From positions 1-56,554 of the forward strand of contig JACRGX010000023.1 in the NCBI GenBank assembly GCA_016212185.1: DNA of 56,554 bases, written 5' to 3'. Source of the stretch: Nitrospirota bacterium (GTDB lineage Bacteria; Nitrospirota; Thermodesulfovibrionia; UBA6902; DSMQ01). The notes under the pieces were generated by a model. It made no database searches and was not told the origin of the DNA. It worked only from the letters and a program-made list of their open reading frames with translations. The first letter of the stretch is position 1. Every line of letters begins with the position of its first letter. The position numbers were made by a program, and so were the translations under genes. This document shows positions 43,721 to 50,304 of this stretch, one piece after another.

Positions 43721-43963
43721 GGGGGCGACAGGCCTCGACGGGGGTTATGAGGTCTACGCTGCATGCCGTGGCTCTGTCACCACGTAAAAAGGCAGAACAA
43801 AAACACAAAAGCCAATCACGAACTGGCACTTGCTGCTTAATTAAGCGGCACGCTTCCCTGAGACTGTCTGCGGCTCAGAAGAGGCGTCAGAAAGCGGGCT
43901 TGTCTGAAGGTATCCTCCCTTGACCTTTGGATGAAACTTAAGAGGGGGCCGGAATCAGTAAAG

Positions 43964-43981
43964 CCTGCCTGCCGGCAGACC
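43964..43981. mobile_element. partial mobile palindrome inside tmRNA
   Basis: CCTGCCTGCCGGCAGACC, matching 15 bases of the 20-bp palindrome at 33494-33513. It lies at the tip of a stem formed by GAATCAG (43952-43958) and CTGATTC (43981-43987), so the insertion lengthens a helix without opening it. Confidence 0.6.
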
Positions 43982-44052
43982 TGATTCTTAAACTTAAATA
44001 AGCAGGATACGCATGTAGACGCTTAGATGTAGTGCTTCCGGACCCGGGTTCA

Positions 44053-44071
44053 AATCCCGGCGCCTCCACCA
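44053..44071 (+). repeat. attL-like direct repeat (3' end of ssrA)
   Basis: AATCCCGGCGCCTCCACCA, the last 19 bases of tmRNA. It recurs exactly at 47968-47986. tmRNA 3' ends are a classic integration site for islands. Confidence 0.88.
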
Positions 44072-44182
44072 TCATCTCTTTTCCGCCATACCCTTGCTTC
44101 CGACAGCAATTTTTACGCTGGATTTTTCTTTTCCTTATCTCGCACTCCCAACACAGAAAAGGTTAAAGAATTCTCTGAAATA

Positions 44183-44224
44183 TATAATCCTATTTTGGGA
44201 TTATACCATAATAGGATATATACT
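44183..44224 (+). promoter_or_regulatory. promoter and operator-like repeats of the island regulator
   Basis: TTGGGA at 44195-44200, spacer 18, TATACT at 44219-44224; ATG seven bases later at 44232. Overlapping inverted half-sites: TATAATCC (44183-44190) with GGATTATA (44198-44205), and ATCCTATT (44187-44194) with AATAGGAT (44210-44217). Such paired operators around the promoter are what controller proteins of restriction systems use. Confidence 0.55.
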
Positions 44225-44231
44225 AAAAAAT

Positions 44232-44450
44232 ATGAGCAAATCAATTTATACAAAAGATTACAAGGAAATTATTAATCGCCTAAAACAAGCGAGAACTGAC
44301 GCGGGACTTTCTCAACAAGCAGTAGCCGATAAACTCGGGAAACCACAATCTTATGTTTCAAAAATTGAATCCGGTGAGAGACGGCTTGATGTCGCCGAGC
44401 TTAAAAAATTAACAGAACTTTATAAAAAGCCGGTATCTTATTTTATATAA
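44232..44450 (+). CDS. small XRE regulator, controller (C) protein-like
   Basis: 72 residues, essentially a single HTH: RLKQARTDAGLSQQAVADKL, then GKPQSYVSKIESGERRLDVA. Size and position directly before a restriction gene match C proteins, which delay nuclease expression when a system enters a new host. It starts close to the -10 box with no ribosome site. Next gene starts five bases after the stop. Confidence 0.75.
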   Translation: MSKSIYTKDYKEIINRLKQARTDAGLSQQAVADKLGKPQSYVSKIESGERRLDVAELKKLTELYKKPVSYFI

Positions 44451-44455
44451 TCACC

Positions 44456-45163
44456 ATGCTGTTAAATAAATTTGAAAAATTTCTACGAGCGGTTGATCTT
44501 AAGGCATATAGAGAAAAATACATGCCGATTAAGATTGTGGAAATGAATTTACCTAAAAATATTCAAGCAATTGAGCTGTTATATCGTGTATATTGGGACA
44601 AAAAGGAATTTATCGATTTTGAGAATTTTTATAAAATTTATGAAAAGGAAAAAGTGCGAGATCTCCACAAATTTCAAAAAAAGACCGGCATGTGCGCAAA
44701 GTGCTTTAAAAAAGGAATAAGGGCAAGAACATACAGAACATGGGCAGGACTAATTACACAAATTCACGCAGGGTATGTTGCCGAACAAGTATTTGGTCCC
44801 AACACTATAAAAATGTCAGAGGAACTGGACCGTCAAGGCGCTGATATTCAAGTAAATTATAAAGGAATTATTCTTAATTATGATGTGAAAAAGATAGCAA
44901 ACACGGGGGTAATGGGGCGCGGGCATACTCCAAAACGTCCAATTCCAGGAGAAAAGATTCCCATTCGGTATGAGGTTCCAAACCTTGATGTTATTTTATA
45001 TCCAAAAAAGAAAAGAGAAGAGGGATATAAGAAAGCGTATACTGATTTTGCTAATAAGTACATAGAAACCAAAATGCTTGCTGTATTTCCAAACGGTTTT
45101 GTTGTCTTTACACCCCATATCTTTGAGCAAAAGAAAAACGAGGTAGACCAATCATCAAAATAA
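44456..45163 (+). CDS. probable type II restriction endonuclease
   Basis: 235 residues. The core ELDRQGADIQVNYKGIILNY followed by DVKK fits a PD-(D/E)XK site, with an Asp in GADI and Asp-Val-Lys after a strand. A CAKCFKKG segment at about 80 holds two Cys. I cannot assign a specificity. Pairing with a methyltransferase (tail-to-tail, nine-base overlap) and a C-like protein supports the call. Confidence 0.65.
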   Translation: MLLNKFEKFLRAVDLKAYREKYMPIKIVEMNLPKNIQAIELLYRVYWDKKEFIDFENFYKIYEKEKVRDLHKFQKKTGMCAKCFKKGIRARTYRTWAGLITQIHAGYVAEQVFGPNTIKMSEELDRQGADIQVNYKGIILNYDVKKIANTGVMGRGHTPKRPIPGEKIPIRYEVPNLDVILYPKKKREEGYKKAYTDFANKYIETKMLAVFPNGFVVFTPHIFEQKKNEVDQSSK

Positions 45164-46675
45164 TTTCGGTACAACCTTTGTGCTATCTATCATCTTTTCC
45201 GCCATTCGCACATAATCTGGATTAATCTCAAAACCAATATATGATTGCCCTAATTCTTTGGCGGCAACACATTCTGAACCTGTACCCACAAATGGCACTA
45301 AGACAACGCCGTCTTTTTTAGGCATAGCTGATCTAATTAATTTTTTCGAAAGTTCAAGTGGTTTTTGTGTCGGGTGTTTCATAATTTCGTGACCGTTGTG
45401 TTTTTGCAATTGCCGCGGTTCAAAAACACTATCGCAAGTTTTACACAAAAACCACCTCTCAATCATTCCGGCCCCACCTGCCAAAGCTGCGACCTTGATG
45501 ACATCTCGCGGTAATGCGCCACCCTCATGGGCATTATAAACAGTTTCTATTCCACTCTTGCTAAATCTGCCAACTGTTCCTTTTCGTACCTTTCCAGCTG
45601 CTCCATTCAAAAATCCTTCCGTATATGGTTCTCTCACTTCATCTCTATTAAAAATTGGGGTGTCTTTCCATGCGCAGATAATTGCTTCATGGCTTCTCTG
45701 CCAAAAATTAAGAGAGGCAACATTTTTATTCGTATAGTGCCAAATAAGCCAGCGTTTGTTTATAGGAATTTCAATAGAAAGATAAGCTAAAATTTCACTA
45801 AAGCCGTAAATAAACATTGTCCCAGTTGGTTTCATTGTTCGGATGCTTTCACTGATCCATTCTTTACACCACGCAACATATTCGCTCAATTCTCGTTTAT
45901 CAAGATTGTTCCCAAAATCTTTGCCGATATTGTAGGGCGGATCAATTACTACGACATCGCAACTTTCGTCAGGAAGTTTTTTAAGTTCTGCGAGTGCATC
46001 GCCTAAAATTATTTTGTTTAATGGAAGCGTCTTGTTTCTTTTTAACGAGGATGTTGTCAATAACTCCTCTACATGTTGTGACTCGTTTTGTATGACGTCA
46101 ATAACAATACCTTGAACCTGTATATCTCGATCTTTCCTTATAATAATCGGTTCGTATGCGCTATTTGCCGGCTGAAGCCGAATCTGATTACGCTCTTTAT
46201 AAAATTTTTTAAGCGTCGCCTCATAATTATCTATTAAAGCAACCACCCTTTGTCCATTTTCAGCAACTTCTTGTTGTTTAACCAAGACAACATCGCCGTC
46301 TTTTATATTTTCGTCAATCATACTATTTCCGCTCACTCGCAAGGCGTAGAAATCGCCATTTTGGGGTAATTTTGTTTTGGCTACTGCTATAAACTCATTT
46401 TGGCGAATTGCTTCAATGGGTTCACCGGCGGCAATAGTTCCCAAGAGAGGGATTTTTACCAAATATTCCTTTTCTGGAATGCTAATTGCGCGCGCCCTAT
46501 TCTTTAACCTTTCCAAATAACCCTCTTTTTTTAACTTAGATATATGAAAATGGGCAGTAGAAACCGAGGAAAGCTTAAAATGCTTACATATCTCCTCAAG
46601 AGACGGTGCGTAGCCCTTCTTTTTTGAGTAAGATTTTACGAAGTCAAGGACTTCTTTTTGTTTTTTTGTAATCAT
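45155..46675 (-). CDS. LexA repressor fused to a beta-class DNA methyltransferase
   Basis: 506 residues in one unbroken frame. Residues 1-65: LexA winged HTH (KQKEVLDFVKSYSKKKGYAP, then SVSTAHFHISKLKKEGYL). Residues 70-200: S24 self-cleaving domain with the Ala83-Gly84 scissile bond (GTIAAGEP), Ser118 (RVSGNSM) and Lys156 (ATLKKF), so the dyad is intact. Residues about 215-500: methyltransferase with motif IV DPPYN (245-249), HPTQKP, and motif I FVGTGSECVAAKELG near the C-terminus, the beta order. It likely methylates adenine-N6 or cytosine-N4 and protects the island's restriction site. It could repress its own promoter and lose its DNA-binding part on DNA damage. Confidence 0.88.
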   Translation of the reverse strand: MITKKQKEVLDFVKSYSKKKGYAPSLEEICKHFKLSSVSTAHFHISKLKKEGYLERLKNRARAISIPEKEYLVKIPLLGTIAAGEPIEAIRQNEFIAVAKTKLPQNGDFYALRVSGNSMIDENIKDGDVVLVKQQEVAENGQRVVALIDNYEATLKKFYKERNQIRLQPANSAYEPIIIRKDRDIQVQGIVIDVIQNESQHVEELLTTSSLKRNKTLPLNKIILGDALAELKKLPDESCDVVVIDPPYNIGKDFGNNLDKRELSEYVAWCKEWISESIRTMKPTGTMFIYGFSEILAYLSIEIPINKRWLIWHYTNKNVASLNFWQRSHEAIICAWKDTPIFNRDEVREPYTEGFLNGAAGKVRKGTVGRFSKSGIETVYNAHEGGALPRDVIKVAALAGGAGMIERWFLCKTCDSVFEPRQLQKHNGHEIMKHPTQKPLELSKKLIRSAMPKKDGVVLVPFVGTGSECVAAKELGQSYIGFEINPDYVRMAEKMIDSTKVVPKLF

Positions 46676-46679
46676 AGAC

Positions 46680-46730
46680 TTGAAAATTTTTTATATTCTT
46701 TAGTATAATCGAAACAAAATAGAAAATCAA
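46680..46730. promoter_or_regulatory. overlapping divergent promoters with an inverted repeat
   Basis: Minus strand: TTGATT (46730-46725), 17 bases, TATACT (46707-46702) for the LexA-methyltransferase gene. Plus strand: TTGAAA (46680-46685), 18 bases, TATAAT (46704-46709) for the CD-NTase gene. An inverted repeat TTATATT-CTTT-AGTATAA (46691-46708) covers both -10 boxes, a good site for the LexA part. Confidence 0.6.
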
Positions 46731-46752
46731 AGCCAAGTTATCCCAAACCATA

Positions 46753-47904
46753 ATGAACATATCAGAAGAACAACTAAGTCGGTGGGCAAAAGCACCAAGC
46801 GAAACAGAAGAAGGAAAGTGCCAAAATACTATAAACAGGATTACGGAAATCGTGAAAAATAAATTTGGCAATGATGTTTCAGTGTTTTTACAAGGTTCAT
46901 ATCGCAACCGGACAAATGTCAGACAAGATAGCGATGTGGATATAGTCGTTTTACATAAGAGCTATTATTTTCCTGATGTTGGTGGGTTATCAGAATCCGA
47001 TAAGACAGCTTATTGGAAAAATTTCACTGAATCCAATTACACATTTCCCCAATTCAAAAATGATATTCATGCTTTACTGAAAGATACTTTCGGGACAAGT
47101 ATGGTAACCAGAAAAAATAAATGTATTAGAGTAAATGGTAATGATTATAGGGTAAACGCTGATGTTGTTCCTTGTTTTGTCCATAAACGATTTTGCGCGC
47201 TCTCATCTGTAGAGGTGGAGGGTGTTGAGTTAGTCTCTGATGCTGGTATTCATATTCATAGTTTTCCGAAACAACATTATGATAATGGTGTTACAAAAAA
47301 CAACGATACCGAAAAAATGTATAAATCAGTGGCGCGTATTCTTAAAAATATTCGGAATGAACTTATGGGTCAAGGAACTATCTTGCCCAACAGTATGCCC
47401 TCTTTCTTTCTTGAATGCCTGGTTTGGAATGTTTTACCGAACACTCTTTTCAAGAAAAGCACTTACACTGCAACAACAAGGGCTGTTATTGCTACAATTT
47501 GGAATGAAATGAGAGAACCTGAAAAGGCAAATAACTACGCTGAGATTAGTGATCTGAAGTGGTTGTTTAGGGGTAACCCCAATAGGACACATCAGCAGGC
47601 TTTGGAAATTTCGCAAACCTTCTCAAAAATCTTTGTGTACGCTTACTATGAGCGATCACAATCGGAAAGTGTGGTCGCAAATTTTGCTGAACTAAATAGT
47701 GAAAATTATCTGTTTTACACTTACGACAGTGCGCCAAATTCACTAAAATCTGGTGCAATGCAAGCACACAAAGGTACTGTCAAACTTAAGTATTTATCGA
47801 ATGAGAACAAGCTTATCGGCACATACTTCAATAGTATTGGAAATAGTGGTGAAGTAGATTTTGAGTTTGAACAAAATGCTTTGATAGGAAGGTTTGCGAA
47901 ATAA
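46753..47904 (+). CDS. cGAS/DncV-like nucleotidyltransferase (CD-NTase)
   Basis: 383 residues. VFLQGSYRNRTNVRQDSDVD gives the Gly48-Ser49 motif and the metal-binding Asp61 and Asp63; NADVVPC gives the third acid, Asp137. This is the SMODS/CD-NTase active site that makes cyclic oligonucleotide signals in CBASS. Helical OAS-like region at about 170-310. The last about 60 residues are strand-rich (KGTVKLKYL, LIGTYFNS, GEVDFEFEQN). No CBASS effector gene lies next to it. Divergent from the LexA-methyltransferase gene. Confidence 0.72.
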   Translation: MNISEEQLSRWAKAPSETEEGKCQNTINRITEIVKNKFGNDVSVFLQGSYRNRTNVRQDSDVDIVVLHKSYYFPDVGGLSESDKTAYWKNFTESNYTFPQFKNDIHALLKDTFGTSMVTRKNKCIRVNGNDYRVNADVVPCFVHKRFCALSSVEVEGVELVSDAGIHIHSFPKQHYDNGVTKNNDTEKMYKSVARILKNIRNELMGQGTILPNSMPSFFLECLVWNVLPNTLFKKSTYTATTRAVIATIWNEMREPEKANNYAEISDLKWLFRGNPNRTHQQALEISQTFSKIFVYAYYERSQSESVVANFAELNSENYLFYTYDSAPNSLKSGAMQAHKGTVKLKYLSNENKLIGTYFNSIGNSGEVDFEFEQNALIGRFAK

Positions 47905-47967
47905 GTCTGCTGAAAAAATTGGAAGCCCAAACAAATGCGTGGCGTGAGGAGGGGGTTTTGGAGGAGG

Positions 47968-47986
47968 AATCCCGGCGCCTCCACCA
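47968..47986 (+). repeat. attR-like direct repeat
   Basis: AATCCCGGCGCCTCCACCA, exact copy of the tmRNA end at 44053-44071, with different bases on both sides (G before and AT after, versus A before and TC after). Confidence 0.88.
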
Positions 47987-49523: not shown

Positions 49524-49856
49524 TTATCTGCTAACAGCCACCAGATCACATTCAACGCTTTTGGCAAGCAGATACCGTATATATGCGTTGTATGATATGC
49601 CCCTTTTCTTTGCAAGCATCCTTATCTTCTTGAGCACAAGCGGGTCAAATTTCAATGTGACAGGCGCAAGCTTTGGTCTTTTAAATATATCCGAACTTTC
49701 CTGCAGTTCCTCCCAATAATCAGCGATTGAGTGTTTCCTCCAGAACTCTCTTTCTTCCCTCTCTGTTTTTAATTCAGGTAATTTCTTCACTGCAAAATTA
49801 GTTTTACCTAAAGGTATTGCTGTTGTCAATATCTTTTTAAAAACATGCGGGGGCAA
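49524..49856 (-). CDS. CopG-type antitoxin-like protein
   Basis: 110 residues. KTEREEREFWRKHSIADYWE is typical of the CopG_antitoxin/BrnA-like family, followed by a ribbon-helix-helix PVTLKFDPLVLKKIRMLAKK and RGISYNAYIRYLLAKSVE. No toxin gene lies next to it, so it is either orphan or pairs elsewhere. The exact start is uncertain. Confidence 0.7.
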   Translation of the reverse strand: MPPHVFKKILTTAIPLGKTNFAVKKLPELKTEREEREFWRKHSIADYWEELQESSDIFKRPKLAPVTLKFDPLVLKKIRMLAKKRGISYNAYIRYLLAKSVECDLVAVSR

Positions 49857-50040: not shown

Positions 50041-50304
50041 ATGCCAACAGATATTGACTTTAGCTTACATTCATTGCTGAAAATTGAGATACTGAAGGCT
50101 CACGATCTACCTGTAACAAAAGAAATTATTGAAAATATTGTCAAAAACCCTGATAAAATAGAAGTAGGCTATAAAAACAGATTAATTGCTCAAAAGGGTT
50201 TTGATGCAACTCGTGTCCTTAGAGTAGTTTATGAAACATTACCAGACAAACTTTACGTCGTAACTGTTTATCCGGGAAGGAGGTCCCGATATGAGAAAGA
50301 TTAA
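50041..50304 (+). CDS. DUF4258-like small protein
   Basis: 87 residues with ILKAHDLPVTKEIIENIVKN and LRVVYETLPDKLYVVTVYPG, a RelE/BrnT-like small fold seen in DUF4258 proteins, often toxins of TA pairs. It overlaps the DUF2283 gene by 14 bases. A GAGGT-like site precedes the ATG. Confidence 0.72.
   Translation: MPTDIDFSLHSLLKIEILKAHDLPVTKEIIENIVKNPDKIEVGYKNRLIAQKGFDATRVLRVVYETLPDKLYVVTVYPGRRSRYEKD

Follow-up and report, generated by a model that had tools for sequence, protein, structure and literature searches.

The LexA–methyltransferase locus

The DNA analysed here, referred to as the window, is the whole stretch of 56,554 nucleotides from a Nitrospirota bacterium. The features of the locus are presented below by their coordinates in the window, with the strand in brackets.

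44053–44071 (+): left copy of a 19-bp repeat, AATCCCGGCGCCTCCACCA, identical with the 3′ end of the tmRNA gene (43721–44071)
44184–44221 (+): conserved controller-type inverted repeats, ATAATCCTATTTTGGGATTATACCATAATAGGATATAT, in front of the XRE and restriction genes
44232–44450 (+): XRE-type helix-turn-helix (HTH) protein, probable controller (C) protein of the restriction gene (PF01381, 9e-16); homologues occupy the same place
44456–45163 (+): TaqI-family restriction endonuclease (PF09573, 1.3e-32), convergent with the fusion gene, the 3′ ends overlapping by 9 bp; the layout is the same in relatives
45155–46675 (-): LexA–methyltransferase fusion, 506 amino acids (winged HTH 2–63, S24 76–192, linker approximately 198–212, β-class methyltransferase 220–500)
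46680–46709 (+): divergent promoter towards the CD-NTase gene, TTGAAA-N18-TATAAT, the end of its -10 element overlapping the predicted operator
46702–46730 (-): promoter of the fusion gene, TTGATT-N17-TATACT, with the predicted operator within its spacer
46708–46726 (-): predicted operator, TTTTCTATTTTGTTTCGAT, with direct half-sites TTTCTA and TTTCGA 11 bp apart
46738–46746 (+): degenerate DnaA box, TTATCCCAA; a perfect TTATCCACA stands at the equivalent place in 45 of 60 related promoters
46753–47904 (+): CD-NTase (CBASS cyclase) fused to a Cap15-type receptor domain, a divergent neighbour in the same island
47968–47986 (+): right copy of the 19-bp repeat, end of the island

The fusion is encoded by a single open frame on the reverse strand, without an internal stop. 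Based on Pfam, the protein contains LexA_DNA_bind (residues 2–63, 5e-16), Peptidase_S24 (76–192, 5e-31) and N6_N4_Mtase (240–494, 8e-37); it scores 185.9 bits against the NCBIfam LexA model TIGR00498 (curated cut-off 110.95), and thus has both the winged HTH and the S24 domain of LexA. A preliminary description of the locus, made from the sequence, had reported a complete LexA continuing in frame into a complete β-class methyltransferase, and this is confirmed; the motifs that it named were all read from the translation where expected (A83–G84, S118, K156, DPPY245, HPTQKP434 and FVGTG462). LexA proteins with the Ala-Gly dipeptide and the Ser/Lys dyad cut themselves on RecA filaments, and in this way DNA damage destroys the repressor. 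A83, G84, S118 and K156 are invariant across 27 aligned fusions, and this conservation of the catalytic residues supports the view, also put forward earlier, that the fusion would be competent for LexA-type cleavage. The closest solved structures in a sequence search are LexA of Thermotoga (3k2z) and the methyltransferase M.BceJIV (8urk), and the modelled S24 domain, taken by itself, matches LexA of the RecA filament complex 8gms with a TM-score of 0.84. The AF2 model of the fusion, built from 27 sequences, is of moderate quality (mean pLDDT 68), with the linker (198–210) and the methyltransferase region 314–404 poorly modelled; we therefore make no claim on the packing of the domains. Compared with LexA (TIGR00498; PDB 3k2z, 1jhf and the RecA complexes 8gms and 8trg), the fusion shares the winged HTH, the S24 fold, the cleavage dipeptide and the Ser/Lys dyad, but adds a methyltransferase of 300 amino acids, and its predicted operators are found at methyltransferase genes rather than repair genes.

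As expected for a Type II system, the methyltransferase gene adjoins a restriction endonuclease gene (RE_TaqI, 1.3e-32), and the TaqI-family neighbour suggests TCGA as a putative recognition sequence. In 52 of 56 loci the next gene downstream runs towards the fusion, mostly with overlapping 3′ ends; the convergent partners include TaqI, MvaI_BcnI, Bsp6I, His-Me and HNH nucleases, and some have no family match. In an Omnitrophota MAG (L022, 2673–3364) the TaqI-type restriction gene is broken into two frames and the LexA–methyltransferase is intact. Concerning the control of the restriction gene, it is preceded by a small XRE protein with an inverted-repeat operator, features that would identify a controller protein. 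The LexA operator was sought at the promoters of the XRE–restriction gene pairs and is absent; their own conserved inverted repeats stand there instead, and direct LexA control of the restriction gene is not supported. The locus thus resembles C-protein Type II systems in having a small XRE protein and its own inverted-repeat operator in front of the restriction gene, but differs from them in that no controller operator was seen away from the restriction promoter and that a second control, of the LexA type, is predicted for the methyltransferase.

The island (44072–47986, 3.9 kb) starts at the 3′ end of the tmRNA gene, has the 19-bp repeat at both ends and contains the XRE, TaqI-type, LexA–methyltransferase and CD-NTase genes; no recognisable integrase was found within it. 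It is missing from a genome of the same genus (G001), in which the flanking DNA is approximately 88–97% identical. The GC content of the island is 0.35–0.39 (vs 0.43–0.45), and positions 44081–46743 are 77% identical to Patescibacteria DNA (L002). Inheritance within the order of the window's genome was rejected, based on the empty site in G001 and on a search of 40 relatives, none of which contains a full fusion. An origin from phages or plasmids was likewise rejected: searches of 72,556 plasmid and 50,697 phage records gave no match over 80% of the protein, and a scan of IMG/VR for the fusion gave one partial match only. Judged from the sequence, the tmRNA gene offers an integration site at its 3′ end, and the preferred interpretation of the island is that it was transferred into a lineage that does not belong to Patescibacteria. 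A CopG-type antitoxin gene (49524–49856, -) and a DUF4258 gene (50041–50304, +) lie near the island and are, as far as seen, not conserved with it.

A recurrent family in Patescibacteria

More than 50 LexA–methyltransferase fusions were recovered, nearly all from Patescibacteria, usually with a convergent restriction enzyme. A scan of genome contigs gave approximately 25 full-length fusions, with identities of 66–89% and nearly all from Patescibacteria MAGs. As these genomes were assembled independently and encode the same full-length protein, a chance or mis-assembled fusion was rejected. In the host genomes, a LexA search revealed many further LexA domains heading long frames that encode other methyltransferases. 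The types joined to LexA are N4/N6 (PF01555), D12 (PF02086; L129, L143, L145) and C5-cytosine (PF00145; L133, L150). In a sample of 380 Patescibacteria genomes, LexA matches are present in 324; among the best matches (approximately 150), 14 lie within frames of at least 459 amino acids, and all 11 of these that were examined are methyltransferase fusions. A one-off of this genome was accordingly rejected; the preliminary description concerned a single fusion and was in this respect too narrow. One relative (L131, 4843–6810) has an additional C-terminal Staphylococcal-nuclease-like domain (PF00565).

In the tree, the LexA modules of the fusions group together in a single clade (SH-aLRT 96; four label changes vs 23.9 when shuffled), which contains four short members; the sampled housekeeping LexA genes of Patescibacteria fall outside, the LexA of the fusions belonging to a separate clade. 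Highly similar LexA modules and promoters precede differing methyltransferases (L034, L031–L033, L122, L127, L146), which indicates that the LexA module is swapped as a cassette. At L203 (G373 C11, 3646–4236), an operator identical to that of the window is followed by a truncated LexA of 196 amino acids, a cysteine-rich tail and methyltransferase remnants; this is probably a decayed copy.

The predicted operator and its targets

In 61 upstream regions, direct repeats with a period of 11 bp score 6.87 of 8 (4.91 ± 0.11 when shuffled); all other periods are near the shuffled control, and 11 bp alone is strongly enriched. The period-11 operator mostly lies inside the 17-bp spacer of a TTGATT/TATACT promoter. 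In L022, L130, L132, L147 and L148 it is found on the opposite strand, a placement that speaks for a protein site rather than promoter sequence alone. Direct repeats of this kind are known from the LexA boxes of α-proteobacteria (GTTC-N7-GTTC, period 11; PMC3323433), with which the fusion operators share the direct repeat, the 11-bp period and the TTC core; the half-sites of the fusions, in contrast, vary with the recognition helix and are placed before methyltransferases.

The recognition-helix residue was defined as X in S-T-x-H-X-[HY]. Phenylalanine is accompanied by TTTCTA in at least one half-site (34 of 34), a few loci, including that of the window, having TTTCGA in the other half. Glutamine or glutamate goes with ..GG half-sites in 20 of 21 cases, the exception (L149) having the weaker pair ATTCGC-N5-TTTCGG, and histidine or tyrosine goes with CGA or CTA. 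The half-sites across the family, by helix, are TTTCTA, TTTCGG, GCTCGG, GTTCGG, TTTCGA and TTTAGG, and both half-sites change together, tracking the helix residue. A tree built solely from the S24 columns has 10 changes of helix class and 11 of the operator; the well-supported independent helix–operator pairs number four, concordant in 3.8 of 4 on average, and are too few for significance by themselves (sign test, p 0.125). As the helix and the promoter are adjacent and can travel together, the covariation counts are not fully independent, and more weight attaches to the coordinated change of the two predicted half-sites. Repression of its own divergent promoter by the fusion, as first proposed from the window, is well supported by a predicted period-11 operator that lies in the promoter and covaries with the recognition helix.

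Other elements accompany these promoters. The perfect DnaA box TTATCCACA, in either orientation, stands just upstream of the same 45 of 60 LexA-fusion genes (0.08 for permuted words), and a link to replication would be a guess. A second, opposed promoter-like sequence (TTGA..-N16–19-TATAAT) overlaps the operator region in 21 of 67 LexA-fusion genes (0.2 expected) and occurs even without a conserved divergent gene.

Seven relatives (L026–L029, both L140 proteins and L134) have the LexA helix-turn-helix without the S24 domain and carry their own period-11 operators; cleavage therefore appears dispensable in some members. These natural variants suggest that the autorepressor core can stand alone, in which case cleavage would be an added layer. 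They also favour an explanation in which the LexA part does no more than autorepress and dimerise, the latter through S24, and cleavage has no physiological role, with repression proportional to the amount of protein. M.SsoII provides a precedent, as its N-terminal HTH region regulates its own restriction–modification system by binding to the promoter (PMC3978073). The fusion resembles M.SsoII and Ecl18kI in that an HTH at the N-terminus of a methyltransferase is aimed at the promoter of its own system, binding being predicted here from a putative period-11 site that covaries with the helix. The fold and the operators differ, however: M.SsoII and Ecl18kI have a 434-repressor-like HTH and no protease domain, hence no built-in release upon damage, and the fusion has a LexA winged HTH on a β-class N4/N6 methyltransferase rather than a 434-repressor HTH on a C5 enzyme. 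The Ala-Gly, Ser and Lys residues are kept in every readable S24-bearing fusion, some of which are less than 50% identical overall to the window protein; pure dimerisation needs neither nucleophile nor base, so their retention speaks against it, and we consider autorepression without a role for cleavage rather unlikely.

Concerning the reach of the operator, its pattern, with up to two mismatches, has 35 matches in 24 hosts (10 for the reversed control). The best match is the LexA gene's own promoter in 23 hosts; that of the remaining one (G050) is an unrelated site with two mismatches. The gene context of the extra matches was considered with four weak ones left out, and one is at a contig edge. 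Additional operators precede unfused methyltransferases (L084, L087 and L088; matches in G043 C10, G061 C26 and G061 C50) and other LexA–methyltransferases (G043 C31, G060 C37, G056 C36). In the 380-genome sample, 14 sites have at most one mismatch; seven precede LexA-type genes and the others resemble chance sites. In the window's genome the operator at 46708–46726 is the sole site with two mismatches or fewer. An SOS repair regulon was not seen among the operator sites found, which precede the fusion itself and other methyltransferases.

These distributions bear on the proposal that the fusion is the host's global SOS LexA carrying a methyltransferase, which would tie methylation to the whole SOS regulon. 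The fusion is indeed the only lexA-family match in several hosts, and the half-sites of the H-[QE]-H fusions resemble those of some Patescibacteria LexA genes. However, operators of the TTTCTA type are nearly unique per genome, and those additional ones that were examined lie in front of methyltransferases instead of repair genes. The window's genome, in which the operator occurs once, also has a separate housekeeping LexA (L043), different from the fusion. A role as global SOS repressor was rejected on these grounds for the TTTCTA type, and we regard it as highly improbable. RecA is encoded in 23 of the 24 hosts and in the window's genome; in the latter, the interaction of RecA with the fusion is assumed, because the host's housekeeping LexA differs.

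The operator at 46708–46726 overlaps the CD-NTase promoter, and the arrangement recurs: the CD-NTase gene is divergent from the fusion in L007, and in G220 from a standalone LexA resembling the fusion clade, with the same operator type. Occasional LexA control of the CD-NTase (CBASS) is thus plausible, and the tie between the two genes suggested earlier gains some ground as a possibility. The CBASS features seen are the cyclase and the Cap15 receptor domain, in one protein; the membrane part was not seen. In L193 (G349 C1), a homologous cyclase (68%) and a Cap15 protein (74% over residues 273–383) are encoded by distinct genes, and from this the window protein would seem to combine a cyclase with the receptor half of its effector, the membrane half having been lost. 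If the switch mainly served to arm defence, phage-induced damage would destroy the repressor and turn on the CD-NTase (CBASS) as a second line, induction of the methyltransferase being secondary. The promoter overlap and its recurrence in L007 and G220 would fit such a role, but most LexA–methyltransferase loci have no adjoining CD-NTase and that of the window looks altered, fused to half of Cap15; we give this explanation little credence.

Proposed damage-responsive modification

The reading that we favour, and consider reasonably probable, is that the fusion is an autorepressing modification enzyme of a Type II system, whose repressor half is removed through RecA after DNA damage, including self-restriction, so that damage raises modification. 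It takes the fusion, its residues, its recurrence, the operator and the covariation from the sequences, and would add to them binding, cleavage, activity of the fragment and the direction of the effect. The N-terminal LexA module would bind its own promoter at the two direct half-sites, which are spaced by 11 bp, and the bound fusion would hold transcription of the methyltransferase low, and probably that of the divergent CD-NTase too. DNA damage, including cutting of under-methylated DNA by the system's own restriction enzyme, would give rise to RecA filaments; imbalance of Type II restriction is known to cause breaks and SOS induction (PMC3874152). On these filaments the S24 domain would cut Ala83–Gly84, parting the DNA-binding domain from the dimerising S24–methyltransferase portion and freeing the promoter, with higher methyltransferase output as the consequence. 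The restriction gene may in addition be dampened by strong transcription in the convergent direction. DNA breaks would in this way feed back on DNA protection, and restriction systems with the fusion would probably raise their own protection while DNA is being cut. Restriction alleviation in Type I systems, in which ClpXP degrades the HsdR nuclease (PMC4231737), has a similar purpose, namely to protect the chromosome from an imbalance between restriction and modification; the fusion, in contrast, is predicted to raise the methyltransferase, and belongs to a Type II system.

For the family as a whole, we would put at about even chances a broader picture in which Patescibacteria captured a single LexA lineage, distinct from the housekeeping SOS repressor, to serve as a plug-in damage sensor for N4/N6, D12 and C5 methyltransferases. 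Its targets would be methyltransferase genes (fused ones, and unfused ones in trans) and sometimes CBASS, and the helix–operator pairs would diversify and so insulate the systems from each other. The cell would read its own DNA breaks and adjust modification, as an SOS-driven thermostat for Type II restriction.

The components are known; their combination appears to be new, as Type II restriction–modification with a new regulatory principle. In the open-access literature, itself incompletely covered, we found no description joining LexA, a DNA methyltransferase and Patescibacteria/CPR. It is a long-standing question how Type II systems spare the host when methylation lags, as upon entry into a new cell, dilution by replication or DNA repair; the solutions described so far involve controller proteins, autorepressing methyltransferases and antisense RNA. 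If the proposed reading is true, a methyltransferase that senses breaks through a module of its own would couple protection directly to damage as a feedback, and restriction alleviation in Type II systems would become testable. The helix–operator pairs would be a ready set of orthogonal repressors. To our knowledge, the regulation of defence in Patescibacteria is almost unstudied, and the fusion would provide a mechanism for these very reduced bacteria.
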